Source: Sphingosinicella sp. CPCC 101087
GTDB lineage: Bacteria > Pseudomonadota > Alphaproteobacteria > Sphingomonadales > Sphingomonadaceae
Length of the DNA stretch: 64,000 bases
Direction of reading: 5' to 3'
NCBI RefSeq assembly: GCF_004151485.1
Contig: NZ_SBFF01000001.1
Location: 1 to 64,000, forward strand
Below the pieces are notes generated by a model that did no database searches, was not told the DNA's origin, and saw nothing but the letters and a program-made list of their open reading frames with translations. A program made the translations under genes and the position numbers. The first letter of the stretch is position 1. Every line of letters begins with the position of its first letter. Below, one piece after another: positions 42,032 through 64,000 of the stretch.

Positions 42032-42928
42032 TCAAGGCGCGCAGGCCTTCCCCAGCGCCTCCACGAAACGCGTGACGGCCGGCGGAACGAAGCCGCGGCG
42101 ACGGTAGACGTGGAATTTGCGGACGACGACCAGCTCCGGAACGTCGAGTTCGACCAGCATTCCGGCCCGCCGGTCGGGAAGCGTGAGCGGCTCCGGCAGC
42201 CAGGCGAGCAGCCCGCCTTGCGCGACCAAAGCCTTGACCGTCGCCGTCGACCGGCTCTCGATCACCACCCGGGGCGGCGGTTCGCCCAGCGACGCGGCGA
42301 GATCGTGGAATTGCCGGCGCGGCGGCGCGTCGAGGGGCGGCATCACCCAGCGCTCGGCAGCCAGGCGGCGCAGCGGGATCGACCCCTGCCCCGCCAGCCA
42401 ATGGTCCGGCGCGGCGACGACCTGATAGCGGTCATGCAGGCCCGGGGCGCTCATCCGAACGATTCCCTCCTGCTCGATCTCGCCCGCGATCAGCAGGTCG
42501 ACCTCGCGCGCGAGCAAGGCGTCGGCCAGCCGGTCCTCGACCGCTTCCATCACTTCGATCTTCAGGGACGGCCAGCGCCGGAGCATGACCTCGATCGCCG
42601 GCGGCGCCAGGCTGATCGCGGCGCTCGCAACGGCGCCGATCCTCAGCTCGCCCTTGCCGAGGCCGCGGAGGGCCTGGATCTCTTCCATCGCCTCGCGGGA
42701 CTGCTCCCGGATCAGGCGCGCATGAGGAAGCAGGGCCTCGCCGAAGGTCGTCAGGTCCATACCCTTCGCCTCGCGCGAGAAAAGCTCCGCCCCGGCGGCC
42801 GACTCGAGGCGCCGGATGATCCGGCTGAGCGCCGGCTGCGTCACGCCCAAGGCACGCGCCGCGCGGCCGAGGCTGCCCCCTTCCACGACGGCCAGGAAGG
42901 CATCGAGATGCCGAGGATCCAGACTCAT
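42032..42928 (-). CDS. LysR-family regulator of the aromatic island
   Basis: 298 residues. HTH at about 4-62 (LDAFLAVVEGGSLGRAARALGVTQPALSR) and an effector-binding domain. It is divergent from the benzoylformate decarboxylase gene. Two symmetric boxes lie at or next to its start, one of the ATAC-N7-GTAT type known from BenM/CatM/ClcR regulators. It is therefore likely to respond to an aromatic acid, but the inducer is not known. Confidence 0.92.
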   Translation of the reverse strand: MSLDPRHLDAFLAVVEGGSLGRAARALGVTQPALSRIIRRLESAAGAELFSREAKGMDLTTFGEALLPHARLIREQSREAMEEIQALRGLGKGELRIGAVASAAISLAPPAIEVMLRRWPSLKIEVMEAVEDRLADALLAREVDLLIAGEIEQEGIVRMSAPGLHDRYQVVAAPDHWLAGQGSIPLRRLAAERWVMPPLDAPPRRQFHDLAASLGEPPPRVVIESRSTATVKALVAQGGLLAWLPEPLTLPDRRAGMLVELDVPELVVVRKFHVYRRRGFVPPAVTRFVEALGKACAP

Positions 42929-42941
42929 ACCGATATGGTAT
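42927..42941. promoter_or_regulatory. LysR box ATAC-N7-GTAT at the regulator start codon
   Basis: ATACCGATATGGTAT is a symmetric 15-mer with ATAC-N7-GTAT, the consensus site for BenM/CatM/ClcR-type LysR proteins. It overlaps the start codon of the minus-strand LysR gene. Confidence 0.65.
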
Positions 42942-42947
42942 GGATGA

Positions 42948-42972
42948 TTGCCGAGATGACAATATTCGGCAA
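42948..42972. promoter_or_regulatory. Inverted repeat TTGCCGA-N11-TCGGCAA
   Basis: Seven-base arms separated by 11 bases, between the LysR gene and the decarboxylase start (70 bases from the ATG). Inverted repeats of this size are typical LysR recognition sites. Confidence 0.65.
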
Positions 42973-43041
42973 GCCCCTGCCCCGCTATGAAAAGGACGTC
43001 GACCCCGGCGAGCGGGGCGGAACAGGAGAGGCCGGGACATC

Positions 43042-44613
43042 ATGCAAGCCTCCGGGCAAACGACGGTTCGTGAGGCGGTGCTGCACCTGCTCCGGTCGTT
43101 CGGAATGACGACGATCTTCGGCAATCCCGGTTCGACCGAACTGCCGATGTTCCGCAACTTCCCAGACGATTTTCGCTATGTGCTCGGCCTGCAGGAATCG
43201 ATCTCGCTCGGGATGGCCGACGGTTTCGCCCAGGCGACGCGAAACGCCGCCCTGGTCAACCTCCATTCCGCGGTCGGGGTCGGCCATGCGCTCGGCAACC
43301 TCTTCACCGCCTACAAGAACGGCACGCCCCTGGTCGTCACGGCCGGCCAGCAGGCCCGCTCGATCCTTCCCTACGAGCCGTTCCTGTTCGCGCAGCAGCC
43401 CGCCGAATTCCCCAAACCCTATGTCAAATGGAGCTGCGAGCCGGCGCGCGCCGAGGACGTTCCCGGCGCCATCGCCCGCGCTTATTATATCGCGATGCAG
43501 CCGCCGAGAGGGCCGACCTTCGTCTCGATCCCGGTCGACGATTGGGACCGGCCATGCGAGCCGGTCGAGCCGCGCCGCGTCAGCCGGACGATCAGGGGCG
43601 ATTCCGAGATGCTCGCCGAGATCGGCGAAGCGCTGAGCCTGGCGGAGCGGCCCGCCTTCGTCGTCGGCGCGGGACTGGCGCGCGACGACGGCTGGGACGA
43701 GGTGGTCGCGCTTGCCGAGCGGCACCAGGCCGCCGTGTGGGTAAGCCCGATGGCGGCGCGAAATGCCTTCCCCGAAGACCATCCGCTGTTCGCCGGCTTC
43801 CTTGTGGCGGGACGCGAGCGGATCGTGTCCGCGCTCGCCGGCCACGACCTCGTCCTGGCGCTGGGCGCGCCGCTCTTCGTCTATCATGTCGAAGGCTTCG
43901 GTCCGCACCTGCCCCACGGCACGCGCCTGTTCCAGCTGGTCGACGATCCGTCGGCCGCGTCCTGGTTGCCGGTCGGGACGTCGGTCGTTACCAACGTGAA
44001 GCTCGGCCTCGCCGAGCTGCTGGAGGGCCCGGCGCCGCGCCGGCGCGAGCCGCCGGCGCCGATCCGCCGGCCAGATCGCCTGACCGGCATGCCGTTCAGC
44101 GACGGCTATCTGCTCCAGCAGGTCGCCGCATCGATGCCGAAGGGCGCCATCGTCGTCGAGGAAGCGCCGAGCAGCCGCGGCCCGATGCACGACCATCTGC
44201 CGATCACGACGCGCGACGGCTTCTACACCTGCGCGAGCGGCGGCCTCGGCCACGGCCTGCCGGCGGCGATCGGCGTCGCGCTCGGCCGGCCCGGAGAGAA
44301 GGTCGTCGCGATCCTCGGCGACGGATCGGCCATGTACGCCATACAGGGCCTGTGGACCGCCGCGCAGCTCCAGCTTCCGATCAGCTTCGTCATCGTCAAC
44401 AATCGCCGCTACGAGGCGCTGATCGGCTTCGGCAGGCTGTTCGGCCTGCAGCAGACGGTGGGCACCGATCTGCCCGGGATCGACTTTTGTGCGATCGCCG
44501 AGGGCCAGGGAGTCGCGGCGCAGCGAGTCGCTTCGCCGACCGAGCTCGACCAGGCCCTGGCTCGATCGTTCGGAGCGTCGGGGCCGAGCCTGGTCGAGGT
44601 GGTCGTCGATTGA
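43042..44613 (+). CDS. mdlC: Benzoylformate decarboxylase-like ThDP enzyme
   Basis: Decarboxylates benzoylformate (phenylglyoxylate) to benzaldehyde in the mandelate pathway. 523 residues. Catalytic positions of the Pseudomonas enzyme are kept: Ser31 in GNPGSTE, Glu52 in GLQES, His75 in NLHSAVG and His282 in VYHVEG. The ThDP/metal motif is GDGSAMYAIQGLWTAAQLQLPISFVIVNN in the C-terminal third. AGGAG lies 13 bases before the ATG. It is divergent from LysR and starts the island. Related 2-keto acid decarboxylases have similar motifs, so the exact substrate may differ. Confidence 0.9.
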   Translation: MQASGQTTVREAVLHLLRSFGMTTIFGNPGSTELPMFRNFPDDFRYVLGLQESISLGMADGFAQATRNAALVNLHSAVGVGHALGNLFTAYKNGTPLVVTAGQQARSILPYEPFLFAQQPAEFPKPYVKWSCEPARAEDVPGAIARAYYIAMQPPRGPTFVSIPVDDWDRPCEPVEPRRVSRTIRGDSEMLAEIGEALSLAERPAFVVGAGLARDDGWDEVVALAERHQAAVWVSPMAARNAFPEDHPLFAGFLVAGRERIVSALAGHDLVLALGAPLFVYHVEGFGPHLPHGTRLFQLVDDPSAASWLPVGTSVVTNVKLGLAELLEGPAPRRREPPAPIRRPDRLTGMPFSDGYLLQQVAASMPKGAIVVEEAPSSRGPMHDHLPITTRDGFYTCASGGLGHGLPAAIGVALGRPGEKVVAILGDGSAMYAIQGLWTAAQLQLPISFVIVNNRRYEALIGFGRLFGLQQTVGTDLPGIDFCAIAEGQGVAAQRVASPTELDQALARSFGASGPSLVEVVVD

Positions 44614-44720
44614 GGCGGGGCGCTTCCGCCGGCCCGCCCGTTGCGTGGGCGCGCGATGGGCGCGGCGGCCTTGCGTTGGATCGTCGGACCAACCATGCGT
44701 CGGCCCGGGAGTAGGCAAAT

Positions 44721-46070
44721 ATGGTACGGTACGAGCTGGGTGAATTGATCGACGACCGGCCGGCGGACGGCATCTTCCGAGTCAGCCGGGCCATTTTCGA
44801 CGATCCCGCGATCTTCGACCTCGAGATGGAGCGTATCTTCGAAGGCGGATGGGTCTTCCTCGGAATCGCCGACCAGGCCCGGGCACCCCACGACTTCTTC
44901 ACGAGCTGGATCGGCCGGGTACCCATCCTGGTCAGCCGCGACGGCGAGGGCATGCTCGGCGGCTTCGTCAACTCCTGTCCGCACAAGGGATCGCGAGTCG
45001 CGCAGACGATGAGCGGCAATGCGCGCGTTCATGTCTGCCCGTATCACAGCTGGTCGTTCGACAGTGCGGGCCGCAACAAGGCGATCAAGCTCAAGAAGGC
45101 GGGTTGCTACGCCGAGGCCTTCGACGGGCAAAGCCACGATCTCGCGCGCCTCCCCGCCTTCGAGGAATATCGGGGATTCCTGTTCGGCAGCGTGAGCGCC
45201 GACGTTCCGCCGCTGGCCGAATATCTCGGCGAAGCGGCCAAATTGCTCGACCTCGTCGCGGACCAGAGCGAGGAAGGCGTCGAGCTGGTGCCCGGTGGCG
45301 TCACGTTCACCTATGACGGCAACTGGAAGCTCCAGCTGGAGAATTGCTCAGACGCCTACCACTTCACCTCGGCGCACCCGTCCTACATAAGGCTGCTCGA
45401 CCAGCGCCAGAAATCCAACAGCCAGTCGGCGGTAAAGTCGGTCTGGGAAAAGACCGACTATTGGAAGGAAGATGCCGAAGGCGACGTGCAGGGCGGCAGC
45501 TTCAGCTTCGATCACGGCCATGTCCTGAACTGGGGCCGTTTCGGGATCACGGATGCGCTGCCCCTGTACGAAAGCGCGGAGCGCCTGGCGGAACGGCATG
45601 GCGAGGCGAAGCGCGACTGGATGTTCAACATGCGCAACCTGACGATCTTCCCCAATCTTCAGATCGCCGAGAATGCATCCAGCCAGCTGCGCGTGATCCG
45701 TCCGATCAGCGCCGACCGCACCGAGATGCGGACCTGGTGCATCGCGCCAAAGGGTGAGAGCGGAGACGCGCGACGACTGCGCATCCGCCAATATGAGGAT
45801 TTTTTCAATCCGAGCGGAATGGCGACGCCCGACGACACGGTCAGCTACGAGAATTGCCAGCGCGGCTTCGCCAGCCGGGTCGAACCCTGGCTGCAGGGTT
45901 ATTCCCGCGGGATGAGCGCGAGCCGCACGGGCGGCAATGCCTTTTCCTCGGTCATAGGGCTGGCGCCGGCGCGCAGCGTCCTGGCCGACGCGCAGCTGGG
46001 CGACGAGACCTTATTCCACTCTTATTACCGCGCGTGGGCGCAGCGCATGGTCGGGGCCCTCGGCGCATGA
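44721..46070 (+). CDS. Rieske aromatic ring-hydroxylating oxygenase, alpha subunit
   Basis: 449 residues. Rieske [2Fe-2S] ligands: Cys86, His88 in NSCPHKG and Cys106, His109 in VCPYHSW. Mononuclear iron site: Asp211, His214, His219 in NCSDAYHFTSAHPSY. The architecture and length are those of benzoate/anthranilate/2-halobenzoate-type oxygenases. The beta gene overlaps as ATGA. No reductase or ferredoxin gene is in the window. It follows the decarboxylase by 107 bases on the same strand. Confidence 0.93.
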   Translation: MVRYELGELIDDRPADGIFRVSRAIFDDPAIFDLEMERIFEGGWVFLGIADQARAPHDFFTSWIGRVPILVSRDGEGMLGGFVNSCPHKGSRVAQTMSGNARVHVCPYHSWSFDSAGRNKAIKLKKAGCYAEAFDGQSHDLARLPAFEEYRGFLFGSVSADVPPLAEYLGEAAKLLDLVADQSEEGVELVPGGVTFTYDGNWKLQLENCSDAYHFTSAHPSYIRLLDQRQKSNSQSAVKSVWEKTDYWKEDAEGDVQGGSFSFDHGHVLNWGRFGITDALPLYESAERLAERHGEAKRDWMFNMRNLTIFPNLQIAENASSQLRVIRPISADRTEMRTWCIAPKGESGDARRLRIRQYEDFFNPSGMATPDDTVSYENCQRGFASRVEPWLQGYSRGMSASRTGGNAFSSVIGLAPARSVLADAQLGDETLFHSYYRAWAQRMVGALGA

Positions 46071-46564
46071 GCGCGATCGACCGGGAAGGCGCCGAAGAAC
46101 TGCTCTATCGCGAGGCCCTCGCCCTCGACAGCGGCGCGTGGGACGACTGGCTGGCGCTCTATACGGAGGACGCGACATTCTGGGTCCCGGCCTGGCGCGA
46201 CGAGGAGAATGTCACCCAGGATCCCGATTCCGAGCTGTCGCTCATCTACTATCAGGGGCGGCGGAACCTGGAGGACCGGGTCTGGCGCGCGCGGTCCGGC
46301 CTTTCGGTGGCCTCGAAGCCCCGGCCCCGCGTCGTGCACGCGATCACCAACGTGCTGCTGCTCACGGCGAACGATGCGCAGGCGCGCACCTCGTCCAGCT
46401 TTGCGGTGCACCTCTACGACAAAAGAAGCGAGCGAACGCATGTCTTCTTCGGCCGGTACGAGCACGCGCTTCGAAACGAAGCCGGCGATTGGCGAATCGC
46501 CGCAAAGAAGATAGTGCTGCTCAACGACGTGATACCGACGGTTCTGGACTTCTATTCGATCTGA
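46067..46564 (+). CDS. Rieske oxygenase beta (small) subunit
   Basis: 165 residues of the SnoaL/NTF2-like fold typical of ring-hydroxylating oxygenase beta subunits: DREGAEELLYREALALDSGAWDDWLALYTEDATFWVPAWRD, then a beta-sheet with RHVFFGRYEHAL-like VFFGRYEHAL and IAAKKIVLLND. It overlaps the alpha gene as ATGA, and the pair make an alpha-beta hexamer in this family. The alpha/beta pair without an electron-transfer gene implies that reductase comes from elsewhere. Confidence 0.92.
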   Translation: MSAIDREGAEELLYREALALDSGAWDDWLALYTEDATFWVPAWRDEENVTQDPDSELSLIYYQGRRNLEDRVWRARSGLSVASKPRPRVVHAITNVLLLTANDAQARTSSSFAVHLYDKRSERTHVFFGRYEHALRNEAGDWRIAAKKIVLLNDVIPTVLDFYSI

Positions 46565-46811
46565 AGCCGGATGAAGACCTTCCTCGTTGACGTTGCAACG
46601 ACCGGGACATAGTTTCCGTGCCGCCGGGCGCATGTTCGGGCATGCGAAATCCACCCGGGCTGCGCTTCGGTCCCGGGCCCGAGCAGCGGGGGTTTGGCCG
46701 GAGCCGAGGCGGCAGGTCGGCCGGCGGGACCTCGGATCGACAAATCCGGAGAATCGACGGATGACCGGCGTGCCCGCCCAGCGCGGGACGCCTGAGGAGG
46801 GGATTGACGCA

Positions 46812-47357
46812 ATGGCGAGCGAGAGCGCTCAACGCGCGAAGGCCGACGGGGTGGTTCGCCCTGCCCCGCGCTCGGCCGCCGCGGGAGGAAGACCGGAACA
46901 GCCCAGGTTCGGCGCGCTGGACGATATACTGGGCCTTCACGTCAGCCTCGGCAACATGGCGATCGTGCAGCATTTCAAGCAGACGCTCGAACCGCTGAAG
47001 CTGACCCAGAAGCAGACCGCCGTCCTTTGGCTGGCGTCGGATAATCCGGGCGTGGTCCAGATCGAGCTCGCAGCCCTGCTGAGGGTGGATCGCGCGACCA
47101 TGCTCGGCATCACCAACAATCTGGCAAGGCGCGGCCTGATAGAGCGAAGGCCGGTCGCCTATCACGGCCGGCGCCGCGGACTGCACCTGACGGAGAAAGG
47201 CGCGGCGCTGCTGGCCGAGGCGCAGGTCGCGGTCCGGACCCACGAGAAATGGGTCAAGGGCCACTTTTCGGCGCAGGAACGGGCGCTCATCGTGAAGCTG
47301 ATGAAGAGGCTCTATGCCGATGCGCCGCCCTTCAAAGGCGACGATTCCGAGATCTAG
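46812..47357 (+). CDS. MarR-family regulator (first of three)
   Basis: 181 residues. Winged HTH core at about 60-145: LTQKQTAVLWLASDNPGVVQIELAALLRVDRATMLGITNNLARRGLIERRP..., with the wing YHGRRRGLHLTEKG. The N-terminal 40 residues are an additional low-complexity part. GAGGAGGGG lies about nine bases before the ATG. It is downstream of the Rieske genes and may control the aromatic cluster. Confidence 0.88.
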   Translation: MASESAQRAKADGVVRPAPRSAAAGGRPEQPRFGALDDILGLHVSLGNMAIVQHFKQTLEPLKLTQKQTAVLWLASDNPGVVQIELAALLRVDRATMLGITNNLARRGLIERRPVAYHGRRRGLHLTEKGAALLAEAQVAVRTHEKWVKGHFSAQERALIVKLMKRLYADAPPFKGDDSEI

Positions 47358-47496
47358 GGCAGCTTCCGCCGGGCAAGCATGTGGGTCGAAGCGCCGCGGG
47401 GCCTTCGTCACGTTCCCCGCCGGCCCCGCTTCTGCAAAAGAAACCGGGTGCCGATCGCGCGGGCCTGTCCCGGCGCTTCGAGCCTTGAAAAGGCGC

Positions 47497-48030
47497 CTAT
47501 CGCGGCTCTTCCAGGCAGCCCTGCGTGACCGTCCAAAGGACCCGATTGGCGGCCTTCATATCCTCGTCCGTGGTCCCTTTGGCGAGATCCTGGATGAAAC
47601 GGCTGATCGGCCGCCGCGTGATCTCGAACTGCTTCATTCCTTGCTCCGTCAGGGAAAAAGTCGGGCTGCGGCGATCCTGCGGATTCTCGCTGCGCGCGAC
47701 GTAAGAGCGCCCTTCGAGATCCTTGAGCGCCCGGCTCGCCTCGGACCTGTCGACCACCGCGCCGTCGGCCAGTGAACGCACGGTTCCGGTCCCCATCAGG
47801 CCGAGCTGCGCCAGGACCCGCCATTGCGGCAGAGTCAGGCCGCCATGACCGGCCAGGATCTGCGCAATGCGCCGATCGAACAGGCGGGCGGCAATAGCCA
47901 TCCGATAGCCGAAATAGGCGCCGCCGCCGATGTCCCAGAACGGAAGCACGTGATTCTGGTGAACCGCGGGCCGTCGTCCGTTCCGCTCGGCCGGCACGCC
48001 GCGCCGCCCATCCGATTGGCCGCTGCTCAT
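47497..48030 (-). CDS. MarR-family regulator (second of three), divergent from carotenoid oxygenase
   Basis: 177 residues. Winged HTH around 60-130 (LTLPQWRVLAQLGLMGTGTVRSLADGAVVDRSEASRALKDLEGRSYVARSE...). The ATG at 48030 has GGGAG eight bases upstream. A symmetric MarR-type operator lies 27 bases before the start, in the region shared with the divergent carotenoid oxygenase operon, so it is the best candidate for that operon's repressor. Confidence 0.9.
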   Translation of the reverse strand: MSSGQSDGRRGVPAERNGRRPAVHQNHVLPFWDIGGGAYFGYRMAIAARLFDRRIAQILAGHGGLTLPQWRVLAQLGLMGTGTVRSLADGAVVDRSEASRALKDLEGRSYVARSENPQDRRSPTFSLTEQGMKQFEITRRPISRFIQDLAKGTTDEDMKAANRVLWTVTQGCLEEPR

Positions 48031-48258: not shown

Positions 48259-49701
48259 ATGGAAATCGTCTTCCCGAAGATCCCGCTCTACGAAGGCTGG
48301 GGCAAGCCGCTCCGGACCGAAAGCAACGTCGAAGGGCTGGAACTGGTCGAAGGCCATGTCCCGGAAGGGCTGAACGGAACCTGGTACCGCGCCGGCCCCG
48401 ATCGCCAGTTTGCGCCCAAGGACGGCGACGACATCTTCATCGACGGCGAGGGCATGGCGCACATGCTCCGCTTCGACCGGGGTCACGTCACCTATCGCAG
48501 CCGCTGGGTACGCACCGAGCGCTTCGTCGCCCAGGAGAAAGCCAGACGGACGCTGTTCGGCCGCTACCGCAACCGCTACACCGCCGATCCGGAAGCGCAG
48601 GGACTCAATCCCGGCACGGCCAACACGAACATGCTGTTCCACGCGGGCAAGCTCACCGTCCTCAAGGAGGACGATCTTCCCTACGAGATCGACCCGGACA
48701 CGCTGGAGACGGGCAAGCGCACCGATCTGGACGGCCAGGTCTCCGCCGTGAGCCTGTCGGCCCATCCGAAGCTCGACCTCATCCGCAACGAATATGTCAC
48801 CTATTCATTCCAGGCGAAGGGCGACGCCTCGCGCGAGATGGCCGTCTATATCTTCGGGCCGGACGGAAAGAAGGTGCACGAGCTGTGGTTCGAGGCGCCC
48901 TGGGCCGGAGTTGTGCACGACTTCGCGGTGACGGAAGAGCATATCGTCATCCCCTTCTTCCCGCTCATCACGGACCTCGATGTGCTGAAGGAAGGCGGCC
49001 CCTTCTATCAGTGGCACGACGACAAACCCTGCATGGTCGCGGTCGTCCCGCGCCGGGGCACGGCCGATCAGCTGCGCTGGTTCAAGGGGCCGACGGTCAG
49101 CGCCGGCCACATGATGAACGCCGTCACCGACGGCACGAAGGTCCATCTCGACGTCGTCCTCTATCACGGCAACTGCTTCCCCTTCTTCGCGACGCCGGAC
49201 GGCCGCACGTGCGATTCCGGGCCGCCGCAGCTCACGCGCATGACGATGGATCTCGCCCGCAATTCGGACGAAATCCAGCTTGCGCCCCTCACCCGCCGCT
49301 CGGGCGAGATGCCGCGGACCGACGACCGCTATCAGGGCCGCCCCTACCGCCACGGATTCATGATCCTGCGCGAGCCCGACGGGACCAGCAGCGTGTCGCG
49401 CGCCGACCTCGAGACGGGCGTGATCGACGTCTGGGCCCATGGCGATGCGATTTCCGTGCACGAGCCCCAGTTCGTCCCGCGCTCGCCCGATTCCCCCGAG
49501 GCGGACGGCTGGCTGCTCGTCATTCTCAATCGGCTCGACAAGGGCCATAGCGAACTCGCCATCTTCGACGCGCTCAAGCTGGCGAACGGGCCGATCGCGC
49601 GCCTGCACCTGCCGGTGCGCGTCCGTTCCACCTTTCACGGAAGCTGGGTCCCGGCCGAAACGCTGAAGACCGGGCGCTATCATATGGAGATCGCTGCATG
49701 A
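48259..49701 (+). CDS. Carotenoid/lignostilbene cleavage oxygenase family protein
   Basis: Non-haem Fe(II) dioxygenase that cleaves a C=C bond, in this group the central bond of 4-hydroxystilbenes to two aldehydes. 480 residues. Four iron-ligand His are visible: His169 (LSAHPK), His220 (VVHDFA), His284 (SAGHMMNA) and His460 (TFHGSW). Residues corresponding to those which hold the 4-hydroxyl in NOV1/LsdA (Phe59, Tyr101, Lys134) seem to be Phe60, Tyr103 and Lys136. That favours a hydroxystilbene over a carotenoid. GGAGAGGGAA precedes the ATG. It begins an operon with overlapping SnoaL, ADH and esterase genes. Confidence 0.9.
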   Translation: MEIVFPKIPLYEGWGKPLRTESNVEGLELVEGHVPEGLNGTWYRAGPDRQFAPKDGDDIFIDGEGMAHMLRFDRGHVTYRSRWVRTERFVAQEKARRTLFGRYRNRYTADPEAQGLNPGTANTNMLFHAGKLTVLKEDDLPYEIDPDTLETGKRTDLDGQVSAVSLSAHPKLDLIRNEYVTYSFQAKGDASREMAVYIFGPDGKKVHELWFEAPWAGVVHDFAVTEEHIVIPFFPLITDLDVLKEGGPFYQWHDDKPCMVAVVPRRGTADQLRWFKGPTVSAGHMMNAVTDGTKVHLDVVLYHGNCFPFFATPDGRTCDSGPPQLTRMTMDLARNSDEIQLAPLTRRSGEMPRTDDRYQGRPYRHGFMILREPDGTSSVSRADLETGVIDVWAHGDAISVHEPQFVPRSPDSPEADGWLLVILNRLDKGHSELAIFDALKLANGPIARLHLPVRVRSTFHGSWVPAETLKTGRYHMEIAA

Positions 49702-55848: not shown

Positions 55849-57351
55849 TCAAAGCGCCACGGTGACGGCCTTCAACTCGGTATAGGCCTCGACGCCGGCG
55901 CGGCCATTCTCGCGGCCCCAGCCCGATTGCTTGTAGCCGCCGAGCGGAAGCCCCGGATCGACGCCCGCGCCGCCATTGATGCGCACGGTGCCCGCCTTGA
56001 GCCGACGGCACAGCTTCAGGGCGGTGGACAGGTCGCGGGTCCAGATGGCCGACGACAGGCCATATTCGGTCGAGTTGGCCTGTGCCGCGACGGCGTCGAG
56101 ATCGTCGCCCTCGCCGAATTTCATCGCGCACAGAACAGGGCCGAAAATCTCCTCCTCGACCACGCGCATTCCCGATACGGTGCCGGTGAGGACGGTCGGC
56201 TGGATGAAATAGCCGGCATCCTGGTCCGACAGGCGCTGCCCGCCGACACTGATCGTCGCCCCCTCGCCCGCGCCACTCTCCACATAGGAAAGCACGCGGT
56301 CGAGCTGCTCCTGGCTGACGAGCGGGCCCATCTCGGTGCCCGGCGCGAGGCCCGGCCCGACCTTCAGCGTCCGCGCCCGTTCCTTGATGCCTTCCACCAC
56401 TTCGTCGAACACGGCTTCGTGGACGAAGAGGCGCGATCCGGCGGCGCAGACCTGGCCGGCATTGCCGAATATCCCCATCGCCGCGCCGGGTATCGCCTTA
56501 GAAAGGTCGGCGTCGGCGAAGATGATGTTGGGCGACTTGCCGCCCAGTTCGAGCGTCACGCGCTTGAGATTGCCGGTCGATGCCCGGACGATCGCCTTGC
56601 CCACCGCGGTCGAGCCGGTGAAGCTGACCTTGTCGACGCCCGGATGGTCGACGATGGCCGCGCCCGCGGTCTCGCCATATCCGGTGACGATGTTGACGAT
56701 TCCTGCGGGGAAGCCGGCCTCCAGAAGCAGCTCGCCCAGGATGACGGCGGTAAGCGGGGTCTGCTCGGCGGGCTTCAGCACCACGGTGCAGCCGGCCGCG
56801 AGCGCCGGCGCGATCTTGGCGACCGACATGACGAAGGGGAAGTTCCAGGGCACGATGGCGCCGACGACGCCGACCGGCTCGCGCAGCGTGAAGGCGTGCC
56901 ATTCGCCCGGGGCGGAGGGCTGGACCGTCTCGCCGGTGATCTTGGTCGCCCAGCCGGCATTGTAGCGAAGCTGATCGGCCGCACCCATCACCCCGGCGAA
57001 TTTGGCCATCATGAAGGGCATGCCGTTGTCGAGGCTCTCGGTGAGCGCGATACGCTCGCCATGCGCCTCGATCAGGTCGGCCAGCCTGAGCAGAAGCCGG
57101 GCGCGCTGTGCCGGGGGCGTCGCCGCCCAGCCGTCAAAGGCCCGGCGCGCCGCCTGGGCCGCCCGGTCGACATCCTCGCGGCCGCCGCTCGCCGCGCTCG
57201 CGAACACCTGGCCGGTGGCGGGATCCACGACATCGAACGTCTCGCCGGACGCGGCGGGAACGAAACGGCCGTCGATCAGCAGCTGGCGCGGACCGGAGGC
57301 GAGCTCCGAGCGGATCTGGTCGAGGGCAGCGGCGGCGAAGGGGGCGTTCAT
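55849..57351 (-). CDS. Aldehyde dehydrogenase
   Basis: NAD(P)-dependent oxidation of aldehydes to acids. 500 residues. Catalytic Cys in NAGQVCAAGSR, general-base Glu in TLELGGKSP, and cofactor segments PWNFPFVM and GSTAVGKAI. The end SGWGRENGRAGVEAYTE is typical of aldehyde dehydrogenases acting on phenylacetaldehyde or aromatic aldehydes. 18 bases after the SnoaL gene in the minus-strand operon. Confidence 0.95.
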   Translation of the reverse strand: MNAPFAAAALDQIRSELASGPRQLLIDGRFVPAASGETFDVVDPATGQVFASAASGGREDVDRAAQAARRAFDGWAATPPAQRARLLLRLADLIEAHGERIALTESLDNGMPFMMAKFAGVMGAADQLRYNAGWATKITGETVQPSAPGEWHAFTLREPVGVVGAIVPWNFPFVMSVAKIAPALAAGCTVVLKPAEQTPLTAVILGELLLEAGFPAGIVNIVTGYGETAGAAIVDHPGVDKVSFTGSTAVGKAIVRASTGNLKRVTLELGGKSPNIIFADADLSKAIPGAAMGIFGNAGQVCAAGSRLFVHEAVFDEVVEGIKERARTLKVGPGLAPGTEMGPLVSQEQLDRVLSYVESGAGEGATISVGGQRLSDQDAGYFIQPTVLTGTVSGMRVVEEEIFGPVLCAMKFGEGDDLDAVAAQANSTEYGLSSAIWTRDLSTALKLCRRLKAGTVRINGGAGVDPGLPLGGYKQSGWGRENGRAGVEAYTELKAVTVAL

Positions 57352-57369: not shown

Positions 57370-57774
57370 TCAGAAGGTCGAGGGGCCGGTGGTCGCGTCC
57401 TGGACGCGGCGGGCGACGATGTCGGTGAAGCGGCCGTCCTTCACCGTGTAGAAGATGACGCTCTTGATGAAGATCGACTGGCCGGGGACGAGCGGGCCGG
57501 CGATGAAGCCGGGATCGTCCTTCAGCGCCTTGAACTCGGTATCGAGCTCGACCGCTATTCCTTCTTCGTCGGCGACGAGGCGGACGACCTCGAGCCGCTC
57601 GTCGCAGCGGGTGGCGACGTCGCGATAGAAGTCGACGATCTCCCGGCGGCTGGTGAGCATCCGCTTGCCGGAAAGGCTGAGCCTCACGTCCTCGGCATAG
57701 AAGGCGCTGAAGCGGTCGAAATCCTTCGCGTTGAAGCCGCCGATATAGTCGCGGACGAAGATCTCCTTGTTCAT
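57370..57774 (-). CDS. SnoaL-like (NTF2) protein
   Basis: 134 residues, one NTF2 domain: FVRDYIGGFNAKDFDRFSAFYAEDVRLSLSGKR, REIVDFYRDVATRCDERLEVVRLVADEEGIAVELDTEFKA and the closing VIFYTVKDGRFTDIVARRV. Its ATG overlaps the stop of the second GMC gene as ATGA. It is a paralogue of the second half of the tandem SnoaL protein in the same operon. LdpA-type lyases share the fold; function here is not known. Confidence 0.87.
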   Translation of the reverse strand: MNKEIFVRDYIGGFNAKDFDRFSAFYAEDVRLSLSGKRMLTSRREIVDFYRDVATRCDERLEVVRLVADEEGIAVELDTEFKALKDDPGFIAGPLVPGQSIFIKSVIFYTVKDGRFTDIVARRVQDATTGPSTF

Positions 57775-59432
57775 GCGAGCATCCTTTCCTGCGCCCGGGC
57801 CGGGGCGAGTTCGTGTTCCGGCGCGAGCGCCGGCCGTCCGAGGATCAGGTCGGCCGCTTTCTCGGCGATCATGATGGTCGGCGCGTTGGTGTTGCCGCCG
57901 GGCACGGTCGGCATGACCGAGGCGTCGACGACGCGAAGCCCCTCGACACCGCGAACGCGCAGCTGCGGATCGACGACGCTGTCCGGGCGGCCGCCCATCG
58001 CGCAGGTCCCGACCGGATGCTGGGTCACCTGGCTGTGCTGCCGGATATGGTCGTCGAGCGCCTCGTCGGTCGTGGCCTGCCCGCCGGGCTGGATCTCCTC
58101 GCCGATCAGCTCGGCCTGCGGCGGCGTGCGGTAGATGCGCCGAACGATCTCGATGCCGCGCCGGGCCGTCTCGAAATCCTCTGCTTCCGAGAAGATGTTC
58201 AGCGTGATCGCCGGCGGATCGGCCGGATCGGCCGAGCGCAACTTCAGGAAACCGTGGCTTCGCGGATGGAGCAGGATCACGTCCGCGGTGACCCGATGCT
58301 CCTGGCGCTTGCCGATGCCGGGAAACCAGATCTTCGCGTCCATGCGGATCGGATTGCTCCAGATCTGTATGTCCGGCTGGGCGAGGTCGGGGCGGGTGCG
58401 GAGCACCGGATTGCAGCTGTTGACCTGGCTCGAGAAGGTGCCCTTGCCGGTCAGAGCCCATTGCGTCACGGCGAGCGCGACGCGGTCGAAGCGAAGCTGG
58501 TTCAAGAAGCTGACCGGCTGCTTCAAGGCGAAGTGGACCGGCACGCGCGGATGTTCGTACAGGTTGCGGCCGACATTGGGACTGTCGACGCGCGTCTCGA
58601 TCCCATGCTCGGCGAGATGCTCGCGCGGCCCGATGCCGGAGAGCATCAGCAGCTGCGGGCTGTTATAGGCGCCGCCGGAGAGGATCACCTCCCGCCCCGC
58701 ATGCGCCACGACCGTCTTGCCGTCGCGCACATATTCGATCCCGACGGCGCGCCCCTGCTCGATGATCACCCGCCGGGTCAGCGCATCGGTGACGACGTGG
58801 AGATTCCGCCGGGCGAGCGCGGGCACCAGATAGGCCCGGGCGGTGCTCGATCGCCGGCCCCTCCGGTCGATGGTGAGCTCGCCCCGGGCGAAGCCTTCCT
58901 CGACCGGCCCGTGCAGGTCGTCGGTGACGTTGAAGCCGGCGGCTTCGGCGGTCGCCATGAGCGGCTCGTGGAGCCGGTGCTCGGTCGCGACCGGCACGAC
59001 GCTGAGCGGGCCGCTGTCGCCATGATAGGGCCCGGCGCCGCGCCAGCTCGTCTCCATCTTCTTGAAGTAGGGAAGAACGTCGGCGAAGCTCCAGCCCTCG
59101 CAGCCCATCTGCCGCCAGGTGTCGAAGTCGAGGCTGTGGCCCCGCATGTAGAACATGCCGTTGATCGACGACGAGCCGCCGAGCACCCGCCCGCGCGGAA
59201 GCATGATCTGGCGGCCGCCGAGTTGCGGCTCCGGCTCGGACTTGTAGGGCCAGACGAAACGCGGATTGAACAAAGCGCGCAGGAAGCCGAGCGGCATGTC
59301 GAGCAGGAAATGCCGGTGGCTCCCGCCTGCCTCGACCAGCAGGACGCGATTGGCGGGATCCTCGCTCAGCCGGTTGGCGAGCACGCATCCGGCGGAGCCG
59401 GCACCGACGATGATATAGTCGAAGCGCTCCAT
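57771..59432 (-). CDS. GMC-family FAD-dependent oxidoreductase (second of pair)
   Basis: 553 residues. FAD-binding FDYIIVGAGSAGCVLANRLSED at the N-terminus, PRGRVLGGSSSINGM, GAYNSPQLLMLSGIGP and the active-site His in QHPVGTCAMGG. Length and pattern match the choline/alcohol-dehydrogenase branch. Starts one base after the stop of the other GMC gene, so the two are translated together. Such enzymes oxidise primary alcohols, here perhaps side-chain alcohols of aromatic dimers. Confidence 0.93.
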   Translation of the reverse strand: MERFDYIIVGAGSAGCVLANRLSEDPANRVLLVEAGGSHRHFLLDMPLGFLRALFNPRFVWPYKSEPEPQLGGRQIMLPRGRVLGGSSSINGMFYMRGHSLDFDTWRQMGCEGWSFADVLPYFKKMETSWRGAGPYHGDSGPLSVVPVATEHRLHEPLMATAEAAGFNVTDDLHGPVEEGFARGELTIDRRGRRSSTARAYLVPALARRNLHVVTDALTRRVIIEQGRAVGIEYVRDGKTVVAHAGREVILSGGAYNSPQLLMLSGIGPREHLAEHGIETRVDSPNVGRNLYEHPRVPVHFALKQPVSFLNQLRFDRVALAVTQWALTGKGTFSSQVNSCNPVLRTRPDLAQPDIQIWSNPIRMDAKIWFPGIGKRQEHRVTADVILLHPRSHGFLKLRSADPADPPAITLNIFSEAEDFETARRGIEIVRRIYRTPPQAELIGEEIQPGGQATTDEALDDHIRQHSQVTQHPVGTCAMGGRPDSVVDPQLRVRGVEGLRVVDASVMPTVPGGNTNAPTIMIAEKAADLILGRPALAPEHELAPARAQERMLA

Positions 59433-59433
59433 A

Positions 59434-61053
59434 TCAGGCGGCTTCGGCCATCGACTCGCGCTCGCGGATCAGGTCGGCCGCCTTCTCCGCGATCATGATG
59501 GCCGGCGCGTTGGTGTTGCCGCCGACGATGGTCGGCATGATCGAGCAGTCGACGACTCGCAGGCCCTCGATGCCGTGCACCTTCAGCCGCTCGTCGACCA
59601 CGGCCTCGGGCCCGGTCCCCATCGCGCAGCTGCTGGTCGGGTGCATGGCGGTGCCGACCCGGCTGCGGACGAAGGCGTCGATCTCTGCATCCGTCTCGAC
59701 CGACGGACCCGGCACCAGCTCGCCGCGCACGATGCCGCGCGCCGGGTCGATCTCGAAGAAGCGGCGGGTGAAGCGGACGAAGCGGCGGAAGGACGCGCGG
59801 TCGCCCTCCGTCGACAGCAGGTTGAACAGGATCCTGGGCTTGTCGTGCGGATCGGCCGAGCGAAGCGTGACGCTGCCGCGGCTCTCGGGATGGAGCAGCA
59901 CGTTCGAGATGGAGAAGATGTCGCCGCGGCGGGCGCGGATGCCCGGGAACCAGATTTTCGCATCCATCGCGACCGGGCTGATGAGAATCTGGTCGTCGGG
60001 GCGGTCCAGCCCTTCGCGCGTGCGGATGAACCCCTGGGCGCCCACCGGCAGGCCGGCCACCGGGCCGGTGCCGAAAAGCTGCCAGCGAAGCACCGCCAGG
60101 GCCATCCGGTCGAAGCGCAGCTGCCGGTCGAAGGTGAAGGGCCCGCTCGCTTCGAAGAGCATCGGGATCGAGGCGTGGTCCTGCAGGTTGCGTCCGACGC
60201 CGGGCAGGTCGAGGACGACGTCGATCCCGTGCGAACGCAGTTCGTCCGCCGGGCCGATGCCGGACAGCAAGAGGATCTGGGGCGAGTTGAACGCGCCCGC
60301 TGACAGGATCACCTCGCGATCCGCATGCACGGTCTCGATCCGCCCGTCTTTCTCGTAGGACAGGCCGATCGCCCTTCCCTTCTCGACCAGGACGCGGGTG
60401 GTGAGCGCTTGGCTGATGACGGTGAGGTTCGGCCGGGACAAAGCCGGCTTGAGGTAGCGCGCGGCGGTACTCGCCCGGCGGCCGCGATGAACGGTGAAAT
60501 CGGGTGCGCTGAAGCCTTCCCGCTCGTCGCCGTGAAAATCGTCCAGGTGGGGAAAGCCGAGCCTCCCCGCCGTCTCGATGAGGCGCGGATAGACATAGTC
60601 GTCGGTGAGGTGCCGGGCGACGCTGATCGGACCCGATCCGCCGTGATGCGGCGACTCGCCGCGCCAGTTCGCCTCCGACCGGCGGAAGTAGGGCAGCACG
60701 TCGTCATGGCTCCAGCCGCGCGCGCCCATCTGCGCCCACTGGTCGTAATCGGCCGGATGCCCGCGCGAATACATCATGCCGTTGATCGACGAGCAGCCGC
60801 CGATCACCTTGCCGCGCGGCGCGGGGATCGAGCGGCCGTCGGCGTGCGGCTCGGGCTCCGATGCATAGCCCCAGCCGATCCCGGGATCGTGCATCGTCCG
60901 GAACCAGGCGAGGGGCATGCTGATCTGCGTCTTCGCGTCGCTGCCGCCCGCCTCGAGCAGCAGCACGCGAACCGACGGGTCCTCCGACAGGCGCGCGGCA
61001 AGCACGCAGCCGGAGGAACCGGCGCCGGCAATCACATAATCGTAAGCGGGCAT
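59434..61053 (-). CDS. GMC-family FAD-dependent oxidoreductase (first of pair)
   Basis: 539 residues. YDYVIAGAGSSGCVLAARLSED, PRGKVIGGCSSINGM, GAFNSPQILLLSGIGP, and MHPTSSCAMGT with the catalytic His. It is clearly homologous to the next gene but not a recent copy, given the many differences. The ATG at 61053 is preferred; the frame continues to 61164 into the decarboxylase gene. It is 8 bases after the LigW-like gene. Confidence 0.93.
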   Translation of the reverse strand: MPAYDYVIAGAGSSGCVLAARLSEDPSVRVLLLEAGGSDAKTQISMPLAWFRTMHDPGIGWGYASEPEPHADGRSIPAPRGKVIGGCSSINGMMYSRGHPADYDQWAQMGARGWSHDDVLPYFRRSEANWRGESPHHGGSGPISVARHLTDDYVYPRLIETAGRLGFPHLDDFHGDEREGFSAPDFTVHRGRRASTAARYLKPALSRPNLTVISQALTTRVLVEKGRAIGLSYEKDGRIETVHADREVILSAGAFNSPQILLLSGIGPADELRSHGIDVVLDLPGVGRNLQDHASIPMLFEASGPFTFDRQLRFDRMALAVLRWQLFGTGPVAGLPVGAQGFIRTREGLDRPDDQILISPVAMDAKIWFPGIRARRGDIFSISNVLLHPESRGSVTLRSADPHDKPRILFNLLSTEGDRASFRRFVRFTRRFFEIDPARGIVRGELVPGPSVETDAEIDAFVRSRVGTAMHPTSSCAMGTGPEAVVDERLKVHGIEGLRVVDCSIMPTIVGGNTNAPAIMIAEKAADLIRERESMAEAA

Positions 61054-61061
61054 TCGCCGTC

Positions 61062-62114
61062 CTACAGCTTGAACACGCGCTCCGCGTTGGTCTGGAAGAA
61101 TTTCTTCTTCGTTTCCAGCGGCATGTCCATATTGTCGAGGATCGTCACTTCCTCGGGCGGGCATTGATAGGGGAAGTCCATGGCGTAAAGGACGCGATCC
61201 TCGCCGATCACCTGCTGGGCGAACTTGATCGCCGGTTCCCAGGCGACGCCGCTGTTGGTGATGTAGAAATTCTCCTTCAGATAGTTGGAGACCTTCTCCT
61301 TCTTCAGCGGCTTGAGGAAGTCGTAGCGCGCCGCCCGGATTCCGGCCTGATGCATGAAGTCGAGCCGGTACATCCAGTAAGGCAGCGCCTCGCCCATGTG
61401 GCCGATGATCACCTGGAGCTTCGGGTAGCGATCGAAGACACCTTTCACGATCAGCCGAAGCGCATGCATGCCGGTTTCGACGCCGAATCCGAAGATGGCG
61501 CCGTCGAGGCCGCTTTCCAGCATAGGCCGGATCATGTCGGCGGGCGGCGTCTGCGGATGAAGATAGATGGGAACGTCCATCGCCTCGGCCGCCTCCAGCG
61601 TGGCGCCGAACTTCGGATCGTCCAGATACTCGCCGTGAATGTGCGAGTTGATCACCACCGCCTTCATGCCGAGCTTCGAGACGGCGCGCTCGATCTCCTG
61701 GCCCGCTTTCTCGCCGGCGTGCGGCGCAACCGCGGCCATGCCGGTGAAGCGGTCGGGATATTTGCGGCAGGCCTCGGACAGCCGGTCATTGGCGAGGATC
61801 GACAAGGCATGGCCGTCCTCCGCGGTCATCACCTGGGTGCCCGGCGCGGTGAGGCCGATCACCTGGCGATCGATGCCGCGCGCATCCATGTCGGCGAGGC
61901 GAAGCTCGCCCAGGTCCTGGAGGCGATCGAAGATGAAGCGCGGCCGCTCGGCCTGGCTGTTGATGTAGAATCCCATGAGGCTGTAGAAACCGGGATCGAC
62001 GTCCCCGGCCGCGAGCAGCTTGCGATAAGCCTCAATCATCTCGGGCGGCGCGAACGCCTCCTCGGTCGCGATGCGAAGATAGCCCTGGCTGCCGCCGGTC
62101 TTGAGTTCGGTCAT
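61062..62114 (-). CDS. ligW: LigW-type 5-carboxyvanillate decarboxylase (amidohydrolase family)
   Basis: 350 residues. It follows LigW of lignin-degrading sphingomonads along its full length: TGGSQGYLRIATEEAFAP, DGAIFGFGVETGMH, GHMGEALPYWMYRLDFMHQAG and TNSGVAWEPAIKF. Metal and catalytic residues correspond: Glu19, His186, His239, Asp313, with Arg250 and Tyr316. LigW removes the carboxylate of 5-carboxyvanillate without oxygen or organic cofactor. A related aromatic acid could be the substrate here. It is 9 bases after an ALDH gene and 8 before the GMC pair. Confidence 0.88.
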   Translation of the reverse strand: MTELKTGGSQGYLRIATEEAFAPPEMIEAYRKLLAAGDVDPGFYSLMGFYINSQAERPRFIFDRLQDLGELRLADMDARGIDRQVIGLTAPGTQVMTAEDGHALSILANDRLSEACRKYPDRFTGMAAVAPHAGEKAGQEIERAVSKLGMKAVVINSHIHGEYLDDPKFGATLEAAEAMDVPIYLHPQTPPADMIRPMLESGLDGAIFGFGVETGMHALRLIVKGVFDRYPKLQVIIGHMGEALPYWMYRLDFMHQAGIRAARYDFLKPLKKEKVSNYLKENFYITNSGVAWEPAIKFAQQVIGEDRVLYAMDFPYQCPPEEVTILDNMDMPLETKKKFFQTNAERVFKL

Positions 62115-62123
62115 TGTCTTTCC

Positions 62124-63575
62124 TCAGGCTTGGTGGATGGCTTTGGTGACGAGAAAGGCGGACAGGCCCTCGGGTCCGTCCTCGGAGCCGTGGCCGCTCT
62201 CCTTGACCCCGCCGAACGGGGAATCGGGCGCGGCCATCATGACCGAATTGATCCCGACCATGCCGACCTCGAGCGCATCGGCGATGAGGTTGGCGGTCCG
62301 GCCATTTTCGGTGAAAGCGTAGCCGGCAAGGCCGTAGGGCAGCCGGTTGGCCTGCTCCACCACCTCGTCGAGCGTGGAGAAGCGCTGGGTCGCGACGACG
62401 GGGCCGAACGGCTCTTCGTTCATGATCCGCGCGGACAAGGGCACGTCGGTCAGCAGCGTCGGCCTGAAGAAAAAGCCCTCCTCGCCGTGCCGTTCGCCGC
62501 CGCTGCGCAAGGTCGCCCCCTGCTCGACCGCGTCCCTGACGAAAGCCTCGACCGCCTCCGGCCGCCGGGGATTGGCCATCGGACCCATATGGGTCGTATC
62601 GAGCAGGCCATCGCCCAGATTCATGCGCTCGAGGCGCTTCTGGAAGGCGTCGATGAAGCGGTCGTGAATCCCCTCCTGGACGTAGAAGCGGGTGGGCGAC
62701 ACGCAGACCTGGCCGGCATTGCGGCACTTGGATATGGCCAGCAGCTCCACCGCCCGATCGAGGTCGCAATCGTCGAAGACGATGACGGGCGCGTGTCCGC
62801 CCAGCTCCATCGTCGTCACCATCATCGTCTCGGCCGCGAGCTTCATCAGATGCTTGCCGACCGGAACCGAGCCGGTGAACGTGATCTTGCGGGTGACCGG
62901 GCTGGCGAGCAGGCGGCGCGACACTTCGTCCGGCACGCCGAAGACGAGCTGGACGACGCCCGGCGGGATCCCCGCGTCGATCACCGCCTGGACGATCGCC
63001 ATCGCCGAGGCGGGGGCTTCCTCCGCCGGCTTCAAGATGACCGAGCAGCCCGCGGCGATCGCCGGAGCGATCTTGCGGGCCGGATTGTGGATCGGGAAGT
63101 TCCATGGCGCGAAGGCGGCGACCGGGCCGACCGGCTCCTTCATCACGAGCGAACGCGTCCCGGTCGGACGCATCAGAACGCGGCCGTAGATCCGCTTCGT
63201 CTCCTCACCCATCCATTCGAACAGGCCGGCGGCGCCCATCGTCTCGGCGCGCGTCTCGGGCAAGGTCTTGCCTTCCTCCATCGTGGCCAGGCGCGCGATC
63301 GTGTCCGCCCGCTCGCGGATCAGCCGGGCCGCACCCTTGAGCACCGCCGCCCGCTGGTCCGCGCTGGCCTTGCGCCATTCGCGAAAGCCGCGATCCGCGG
63401 CATCGAGTGCGCGATCGAGGTCGGCCGCGTCGGCCAGCGGGAGCTCGCCCAGCGGCTTCCCGGTGGCCGGATTGAGCACCGGCTGAGTGCGGCGCTGGTC
63501 GGCGCCGACCCACTCTCCATCGATGTGCAGGCCCAGCTTCGGATATTGGACGGTCGAGTTTTCCTGATCAGCCAT
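62124..63575 (-). CDS. Aldehyde dehydrogenase, SSADH-like
   Basis: 483 residues. Catalytic Cys in NAGQVCVSPTR, Glu in MELGGHAP, PWNFPIHN and GSVPVGKHLMK at the cofactor site. This is the succinate-semialdehyde/aromatic-aldehyde branch and not the same branch as the other ALDH of the operon. The ATG at 63575 (MADQENS) is preferred; the open frame further upstream runs into the carotenoid oxygenase gene. 9 bases separate it from the LigW-like gene. Confidence 0.95.
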   Translation of the reverse strand: MADQENSTVQYPKLGLHIDGEWVGADQRRTQPVLNPATGKPLGELPLADAADLDRALDAADRGFREWRKASADQRAAVLKGAARLIRERADTIARLATMEEGKTLPETRAETMGAAGLFEWMGEETKRIYGRVLMRPTGTRSLVMKEPVGPVAAFAPWNFPIHNPARKIAPAIAAGCSVILKPAEEAPASAMAIVQAVIDAGIPPGVVQLVFGVPDEVSRRLLASPVTRKITFTGSVPVGKHLMKLAAETMMVTTMELGGHAPVIVFDDCDLDRAVELLAISKCRNAGQVCVSPTRFYVQEGIHDRFIDAFQKRLERMNLGDGLLDTTHMGPMANPRRPEAVEAFVRDAVEQGATLRSGGERHGEEGFFFRPTLLTDVPLSARIMNEEPFGPVVATQRFSTLDEVVEQANRLPYGLAGYAFTENGRTANLIADALEVGMVGINSVMMAAPDSPFGGVKESGHGSEDGPEGLSAFLVTKAIHQA

Positions 63576-63612
63576 GAAGGATTCCTGTGTTGGGAAAGGG
63601 GGGAGTAGGGGG

Positions 63613-64000
63613 CTAGCCGGCAATCTGCGCGGCGGTCGCCCAATTGCCGTGAAGGCCGGGCCGGATCCGGAAGGGAATGCCGAGCGTCGCGATCGGACCC
63701 TTGGCGACGTGCCGCGCCTCGAAGAGGAGCAGGCGCGAGCTTTGGGTATCGAGGCGGTTCTCGATCGCGACGAGATAGCCGTCGCCTTCCTCGGTCGAGC
63801 CGGGCCGCGGGACGAAAGCGGGCTCCTGAAGCGAGGAGACCGGGCCGAGCCAGTAGGTGTCCTTCTCCCCCGTCTCGAGGTCGATATGGGCAAGCGTGTT
63901 CATCAGCATGCCCGAGGCGCTGCGGCCGCCGGGCAGGTCCACCGGCTTGCTGAAGTCCTGCACGAGCAGGAAGCCATGACGGTTCTTGAGGCCGGTGAAC
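63613..64000 (-). CDS. Carotenoid oxygenase family protein, C-terminal part (cut by window edge)
   Basis: The last 128 or so residues of a lignostilbene-type oxygenase. NRHGFLLVQDF, NTLAHIDLETGEKDTYWLGP, LQEPAFVPRPGSTEEGDGYLVAIENRL and the final iron-ligand His in PGLHGNW are visible. It is the first gene of the minus-strand operon within the window, 37 bases before an ALDH. The N-terminal three iron ligands lie outside the window. Confidence 0.88.
   Translation of the reverse strand, partial: FTGLKNRHGFLLVQDFSKPVDLPGGRSASGMLMNTLAHIDLETGEKDTYWLGPVSSLQEPAFVPRPGSTEEGDGYLVAIENRLDTQSSRLLLFEARHVAKGPIATLGIPFRIRPGLHGNWATAAQIAG

Follow-up and report, generated by a model that had tools for sequence, protein, structure and literature searches.

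The first 64,000 nucleotides of contig NZ_SBFF01000001.1 of Sphingosinicella sp. CPCC 101087, which we call the window (C1:1-64000; the whole genome comprises 44 contigs and 4.70 Mb), carry an island of genes for aromatic metabolism that begins at 42032 and reaches beyond the window to about C1:77151. Judged by gene families and gene order, this island is a syntenic homolog of phc, the β-5 (phenylcoumaran) cluster of Sphingobium SYK-6, and additionally incorporates genes of the lsdD, ferD and ligW types. It likely encodes the uptake and breakdown of β-5 lignin dimers along the same route as in SYK-6, dehydrodiconiferyl alcohol (DCA) being one example. The β-5 bond is given as the second commonest lignin linkage in PMC11323797, and the island very probably enables breakdown of a common two-ring lignin fragment.

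Correspondence with the SYK-6 phc cluster

Genes were called by script and assigned to families with Pfam profiles, while curated names and their cut-offs were taken from NCBIfam. SYK-6 was found first in a genome scan with its lignostilbene dioxygenase (LSD) LSD4 as query, a sequence obtained from a PDB alignment. GMC and DUF3237 genes were located on its chromosome, the region at 988-1028 kb was read, and genes were named by comparing their positions and order with Table 1 of PMC12997858. The same matches, with identical coordinates, turn up in G144 of the same-family genome set, which places SYK-6 and the host of the island in one family. The phc cluster at about 991-1015 kb (phcF SLG_09360, phcG SLG_09370, lsdB SLG_09440, phcC SLG_09480, phcD SLG_09500) contains the same families as the island: 18 of the 21 called genes match island proteins at E 1e-8, the weakest being the second aldehyde dehydrogenase (ALDH) with 29% identity, and three have no match. 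The sub-blocks are mostly common to both, namely TonB-CocE, the DUF3237 pair, SnoaL4-alcohol dehydrogenase (ADH)-hydrolase-LSD, AAHS, a GMC pair with SnoaL and ALDH, MarR, and tandem SnoaL. Three more island genes are matched by the SYK-6 lsdD locus (LsdD 58%, FerD 61%, LigW2 52%), which lies about 390 kb from the phc cluster, whereas the island has such genes in one run with the GMC and PhcG-type genes. A second difference is the benzoylformate decarboxylase (BFDC) and Rieske pair of the island, which do not occur in the SYK-6 cluster region read. One chain in the SYK-6 phc cluster (L095:10654-11556) carries two MarR matches.

A sequence-only reading of this DNA had recognized a 22-kb aromatic parts list, which gene calling and Pfam bear out and which, given the 18 matches in SYK-6, is more than a chance assembly. 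The parts it listed are present; it overlooked a further SnoaL-fold protein at 46067-46564 (the Rieske beta subunit), and the second LSD lies mostly beyond the window in an island that runs on to about 77 kb. Its proposal of a sphingomonad β-5 dimer pathway proceeding through formation and cleavage of a stilbene agrees with the phc synteny, the LSD scores and the GMC and DUF3237 clades, and the synteny search against SYK-6 that it called for found a counterpart in the phc cluster. By families and order, the gene set is not an unknown one: the impression of an unfamiliar set gives way to the SYK-6 phc cluster plus lsdD, ferD and ligW.

An 11-gene minus-strand run

An 11-gene run extends on the minus strand from C1:68677 to 54992 in the order MFS, DUF3237-b, CocE, LSD-B, ALDH-b, LigW, GMC-b, GMC-a, SnoaL_2, ALDH-a and tandem SnoaL. 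Its intergenic gaps measure -4 to 37 bases and the TonB gene lies 223 bases upstream; we infer a single transcript. With PhcC-, PhcD-, PhcG-, LsdD-, FerD- and LigW-type genes together, such a run would make a compact β-5 dimer cassette. The single run is a new arrangement as far as can be seen from 80 lsdD loci, which are those closest to SYK-6 LsdD among 206 candidates and not a random sample, and for which counts are lower bounds, some loci being shortened by contig ends and identity thresholds having been applied. LigW was near in 48 of these loci, an FerD-type ALDH in 40 and PcfL in 36; a PhcC/PhcD-type GMC was found in two (Aurantiacibacter xanthus and A. rhizosphaerae), neither with LigW in the stretch read.

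Related systems share parts of this layout. The lsdD-ferD-ligW locus of Novosphingobium (the PcfL route, Saro_0796-0802, read in N. subterraneum, L046) groups LsdD, FerD and LigW as in the island but uses PcfL, a formaldehyde lyase, whereas the island is without a close PcfL homolog and has pairs of GMC and DUF3237 proteins. The 16 Erythrobacteraceae-type lsdD loci with BFDC that were read combine LsdD and BFDC, often with LigW, an FerD-type ALDH and a related MarR, like the island; they differ in that their DUF3237 proteins (L029 and L025 sampled) fall on another branch and the GMC of L029 is HpvZ-like. The pinoresinol (pin) pathway of Novosphingobium rhizosphaerae LY follows a similar logic of GMC oxidase, DUF3237 decarboxylase and LSD, as described in PMC12607616, with another substrate. 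There, PinX is a DUF3237 protein with 42% identity to PhcG and 38% to PhcF, and PinY a GMC protein with 39% to PhcC; the proteins that by gene position correspond to these two in SYK-6 branch outside the clades of the island proteins.

Predicted route for β-5 dimers

The route set out here is built on observed gene presence, relationship and order, from which the substrate and activity of every protein are derived. In SYK-6, PhcC and PhcD, each stereoselective, oxidize the gamma alcohol, PhcF and PhcG decarboxylate the product to the stilbene DCA-S, a lignostilbene dioxygenase splits DCA-S into vanillin and 5-formylferulate, and FerD with LigW/LigW2 converts the latter to ferulate (PMC12997858 and PMC11323797). 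Homologs for all of these steps (GMC, DUF3237, LSD, FerD, LigW) are present in the island. Dimers would be imported by the TonB receptor (68901-71888, beyond the window; 55% to SYK-6) and MFS proteins, including that at 67268-68677 (minus strand, beyond the window), the first gene of the run, and perhaps the AAHS-like importer at 53500-54855 (plus strand), which shares 60% with a SYK-6 cluster gene and misses the TIGR00895 cut-off (273 bits vs 418.6). The ADH and an ALDH may then oxidize the ring-side allyl alcohol, a step whose enzymes in SYK-6 are described as unidentified in PMC8191317. The two GMC proteins would oxidize the gamma alcohol to the carboxylate, and the two DUF3237 proteins would decarboxylate it with ring opening to DCA-S. 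LSD-B would cleave DCA-S to vanillin and 5-formylferulate, the latter being converted to ferulate by ALDH-b (FerD) and the LigW protein. For the lower pathway, a LigB-family match of 286.7 bits is located on contig C34.

Phylogenetic placement supports these assignments. In a GMC tree of 25 rows (24 distinct proteins, one present twice), GMC-a (57771-59432, minus strand; 62% to PhcD) falls inside the PhcD clade with support of 97/96 and GMC-b (59434-61053, minus strand; 54% to PhcC) inside the PhcC clade with 99/99. DUF3237-a (52864-53346), which stands by itself on the minus strand and is a PhcF-type decarboxylase by homology, groups with PhcF (96/93); DUF3237-b (66792-67271, minus strand, beyond the window; 72% to PhcG) groups with PhcG (97/98). 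The FerD and LigW/LigW2 types were assigned by identity (60-61% and 52-60%): ALDH-b (62124-63575, minus strand), a 5-formylferulate dehydrogenase candidate, shares 61% with SYK-6 FerD and 60% with that of N. subterraneum, and the aromatic decarboxylase of the amidohydrolase family (61062-62114, minus strand; best PDB match 4inf, 467.6 bits) shares 60% with LigW of the N. subterraneum lsdD locus and 52% with SYK-6 LigW2. LSD-B (63613 to C1:65082, minus strand), of which the last 388 bases lie inside the window, belongs to the LSD1-LSD4/NOV1 clade. In the LSD tree (33 rows, G034_C90 left out, G117_C135 a long branch), it falls with 100/100 in the LSD1-LSD4 clade that contains LsdD, and it retains four residues of LSD4, namely Phe59, Tyr101, Lys134 and Ser283, the last of which binds DCA-S. 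The four His ligands and the Tyr101/Lys134 pair are conserved in LSD-A as well as LSD-B.

Several observations weigh against this route or parts of it. LSD-B is sister to LSD1-LSD4 together, outside the LsdD branch, and is 60% identical to LSD3 and 58% to LSD4; DCA-S may therefore not be its sole or best substrate. DUF3237-a shares just 46% with PhcF. For both GMC proteins the best curated name is the choline dehydrogenase subfamily PRK02106, with 594.6 and 605.7 bits vs a cut-off of 605 that GMC-b just passes. Finally, two LdpA/PcfL homologs elsewhere in the genome, on contig C2, suggest that a second stilbene-forming route may run in parallel.

The stilbene-forming step

Stilbene formation had been ascribed either to decarboxylation or to an LdpA-type release by SnoaL proteins. 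Homology of the DUF3237 proteins to PhcF and PhcG, on which their role as stilbene-forming decarboxylases is based, favours the first, and no close LdpA/PcfL homolog was found among the SnoaL proteins of the island. SYK-6 LdpA (L118) was recognized from its location behind the ldpB-type SDR gene and from its 43% identity with PcfL of N. subterraneum; it is identical to PDB 8abv, an entry titled SnoaL-like domain-containing protein. The island SnoaL proteins were rejected as close LdpA/PcfL homologs, none being found at E 0.01 in one search. The nearest likeness is that of SnoaL4a, a small SnoaL_4 (NTF2-fold) protein, at 25% over 165 amino acids (E 7e-4 in a small database). Against an LdpA/PcfL profile SnoaL4a reached 88% probability (23% identity over 122 columns), compared with 99% against SnoaL4b, another SnoaL_4 protein; four other SnoaL-fold proteins of the island, searched as single sequences, stayed below 3% probability against the LdpA/PcfL profile. 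A PDB search with SnoaL4a returned weak matches only, and a single-sequence AlphaFold model with a mean predicted local distance difference test score of 41 was not used. The homologs on contig C2 (C2:234402-240575, L150) lie about 5 kb apart and share 50% with PcfL and 46% with LdpA (45-50% overall).

A conserved LSD-A, SnoaL4a, ADH and hydrolase unit

The plus strand of the island carries a second LSD in a contiguous unit of four genes: LSD-A (48259-49701; 60% to SYK-6 LSD7), SnoaL4a (49731-50222; 63% to its SYK-6 counterpart), a zinc ADH (50219-51316; 57%) and an alpha/beta hydrolase of the BD-FAE/Abhydrolase_3 type (51316-52188; 52%). LSD-A groups with LSD7/LsdB (100/100) and has Ile, Tyr, Lys and Gly at the positions of LSD4 Phe59, Tyr101, Lys134 and Ser283; the lignostilbene models of NCBIfam score best for it, below their cut-offs. 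PMC8191317 describes LSD7 of SYK-6 as an enzyme with a preference for lignostilbene and poor activity on DCA-S; its gene is one of the LSD genes that are induced on DCA, and the phc genes are no more than about 5 kb away. The same source states that the physiological roles of the SYK-6 LSDs call for further work. A literature search on six locus tags in or beside the SYK-6 module turned up only SLG_09440, which two papers mention.

Conservation of the unit was surveyed in 148 genomes of the same family. SnoaL4a orthologs (threshold E 1e-20) occur in 16 of them, the genome of the island included, and the neighbourhood was examined in 14 of the 16 (again including the island's genome; G032 and G069 were left out, and the SnoaL4a position in G014 comes from the ortholog search and not from a gene call). 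Homologs of LSD, ADH and hydrolase were near SnoaL4a in all 14: of the other 13 genomes, ten have them within 2.6 kb, and in G136, G102 and G014 the distance is larger, reaching 12 kb. In six of the 14 (G147, G008, G014, G079, G136, G102) the LSD is just 39-41% identical to LSD-A; these LSDs make up a clade of their own (100/100), in which Arg replaces Lys134, a key stilbene-LSD residue. Across 13 SnoaL4a orthologs, 59 of 163 residues are invariant, Asp21, His40 and His72 among them. An Asp-His pair serves some enzymes of the SnoaL_4/NTF2 fold.

These patterns bear on a reading in which the island serves two dimers, with the minus-strand run acting on the β-5 dimer DCA and the plus-strand unit on another stilbene precursor (e.g., of the β-1 type or gamma-acylated) whose breakdown ends in lignostilbene. 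We place it only slightly below an even call. It agrees with the other group of LSD in six genomes, with the preference of DCA-induced LSD7 for lignostilbene over DCA-S, and with the eight of the 13 other genomes in which the roughly 17-20 kb read on either side of and across the unit contained no GMC or DUF3237 match. However, the unit lies inside the phc cluster in SYK-6 and G076, PhcG- or PhcF-type genes are close by in G066 and G117, and its ADH would suit the first step on DCA. For the β-5 route as a whole, we consider that the unit, together with BFDC, probably serves a side branch or a related dimer.

A more specific proposal is that SnoaL4a is a new stilbene-forming dehydratase or lyase of the SnoaL_4 fold, without close kinship to LdpA/PcfL, and that the adjacent LSD cleaves its product; with the ADH and hydrolase it would form another route to lignostilbene-type intermediates, with BFDC in the same dimer metabolism. 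Linkage and conservation are what suggest this role for SnoaL4a, and we regard the proposal as rather unlikely; if true, it would account for the induction of SYK-6 LSD7 on DCA despite its poor activity on DCA-S. Formaldehyde detoxification by the ADH and hydrolase was considered and rejected: as FdhA (TIGR02818) the ADH scores 205 bits vs a cut-off of 544, and the S-formylglutathione hydrolase model gave no match for the hydrolase. The genome has one TIGR02818 match above the cut-off, at C6:25207 (620 bits). Elsewhere, 12 of 18 lsdD loci read carry a conserved block ahead of lsdD (e.g., L026, L029, L047); in L026 it includes FdhA and an S-formylglutathione hydrolase by NCBIfam, the lsdD neighbour passing the latter model. 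The comparison frames two testable questions, namely the role of the LSD-A/SnoaL4a/ADH/hydrolase unit and why BFDC recurs with lsdD.

Other LSD homologs occur in the same genome. One at C41:216459-217943 (L008) is 61% identical to SYK-6 LSD5/LsdF, which is listed as the PinU counterpart in PMC12997858. A locus at C12:353142-368912 (L007, L011) holds an ALDH, an LSD with 69% identity to LSD7, a LigW-like protein (41%), a VanA-type Rieske oxygenase by Pfam and two SnoaL proteins, with a PhcF-clade DUF3237 and a PhcD-clade GMC farther along; it is possibly another dimer pathway.

BFDC, the Rieske pair and ApbA

BFDC (43042-44613, plus strand) scores 797.8 bits against NCBIfam NF005485 (cut-off 493), and its best PDB matches are named BFDC. 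Next to it on the same strand are a BenA/AntA-like Rieske oxygenase alpha subunit (44721-46070; TIGR03229 432 bits, missing the cut-off of 781) and a BenB-like beta subunit (46067-46564; Ring_hydroxyl_B 133 bits, and TIGR03232 137 bits, missing the cut-off of 225.6). The joint presence of BFDC and a Rieske enzyme had been taken to suggest a different substrate or lower pathway. Another reading makes BFDC, the Rieske pair and ApbA a separate branch of the mandelate-to-benzoate type that is a mere neighbour of the dimer genes. The ApbA/PanE family includes some D-mandelate dehydrogenases. The Rieske alpha subunit has matches at E 1e-60 in nine of the 148 genomes, six of them at 57% or more; ApbA adjoins the Rieske pair in three of five other genomes read (G076, G117 and G114; not SYK-6 or G050), BFDC is near the Rieske pair in G050, and BFDC adjoins ApbA in G111. 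Together with the BFDC score above its equivalog cut-off and the BenAB/AntAB-like pair, these neighbourhoods speak for such a branch.

On the other side, a BFDC homolog (at least 50% identity) lies within flanks of up to 10 kb in 16 of the 80 lsdD loci, frequently in the order LsdD-DUF3237-BFDC-MFS-LigW-FerD; the remaining 64, SYK-6 included, have none in their flanks, some of these loci being shortened by contig ends. Given this repeated pairing with lsdD elsewhere in the Sphingomonadales, BFDC alone is no pointer to a different substrate, whereas the doubt stands for the Rieske pair. BFDC matches at E 1e-120 were present in 25 of the 148 genomes, comprising all 16 with SnoaL4a and nine of the 132 without (Fisher 1.9e-15, a value that ignores shared ancestry). 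However, BFDC is absent from all 13 other readable SnoaL4a stretches, which counts against a direct link between BFDC and the SnoaL4a unit and in favour of a separate branch. The BFDC gene of SYK-6 has another location, where its neighbours are two ADH-like genes with 46% and 25% identity to the ADH of the island. A record-level search of the literature on BFDC with lignin and Sphingobium found no tie of BFDC to lsdD. The Rieske proteins also miss the BenA and BenB cut-offs, and no reductase partner was recognised among the island genes scanned. A mandelate-like branch of BFDC, Rieske and ApbA is possible rather than shown, and we lean against the three being a mere neighbour of the dimer genes.

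A reading unrelated to lignin, in which the oxygenases are carotenoid or apocarotenoid enzymes and the GMC proteins choline or polyethylene glycol oxidases, as the generic names RPE65 and PRK02106 (the latter just passed by GMC-b) would have it, is highly improbable, because the best PDB relatives of LSD-A and LSD-B are stilbene-cleaving enzymes that score more than 250 bits over carotenoid and apocarotenoid oxygenases, and Escherichia coli choline dehydrogenase BetA, a long branch in the GMC tree, falls outside the PhcC and PhcD clades; the phylogenetic check proposed beforehand thus came out in favour of lignin, for the LSDs by bit scores against solved structures and for the GMC proteins by tree.

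Remaining genes and borders of the island

By Pfam, four regulators lie in the part of the island inside the window. A LysR gene (42032-42928, minus strand) forms the left edge of the island and adjoins CoaX. MarR1 (46761-47357, plus strand) shares 39% with the MarR adjoining lsdD in SYK-6; MarR2 (47497-48030, minus strand), divergent from LSD-A, shares 55% with a MarR that directly precedes the LSD unit in G117 and G138; and MarR3 (52312-52836, plus strand) shares 37% with a MarR of the SYK-6 phc cluster. The run further includes CocE hydrolase (65079-66779, minus strand, beyond the window; 62% to SYK-6), the SnoaL_2 protein (57370-57774, minus strand; 36-42% to three SYK-6 cluster genes), ALDH-a (55849-57351, minus strand), which is StyD/BADH-like below those cut-offs and shares 63% with the SYK-6 gene adjoining phcD, and its end gene, the tandem SnoaL protein (54992-55813, minus strand; 53% to a SYK-6 cluster gene). 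After the TonB receptor follow MarR, SnoaL_4, two MFS and ApbA (C1:76219), ending at about C1:77151.

In three relatives (G117 and two members of the same genus, G053 and G129), CoaX is followed by one or two small genes and a nuo-type gene set, which was Pfam-scanned in G129 and agrees in gene sizes and order in G053 and G117. At the thresholds applied, searches of the two same-genus genomes for GMC, Rieske, SnoaL4a and BFDC genes gave no match. This would fit acquisition or rearrangement. Farther to the left, at 3838-5945 of the window, a tRNA-Thr gene is followed by a 598-codon open reading frame, a possible integration site.

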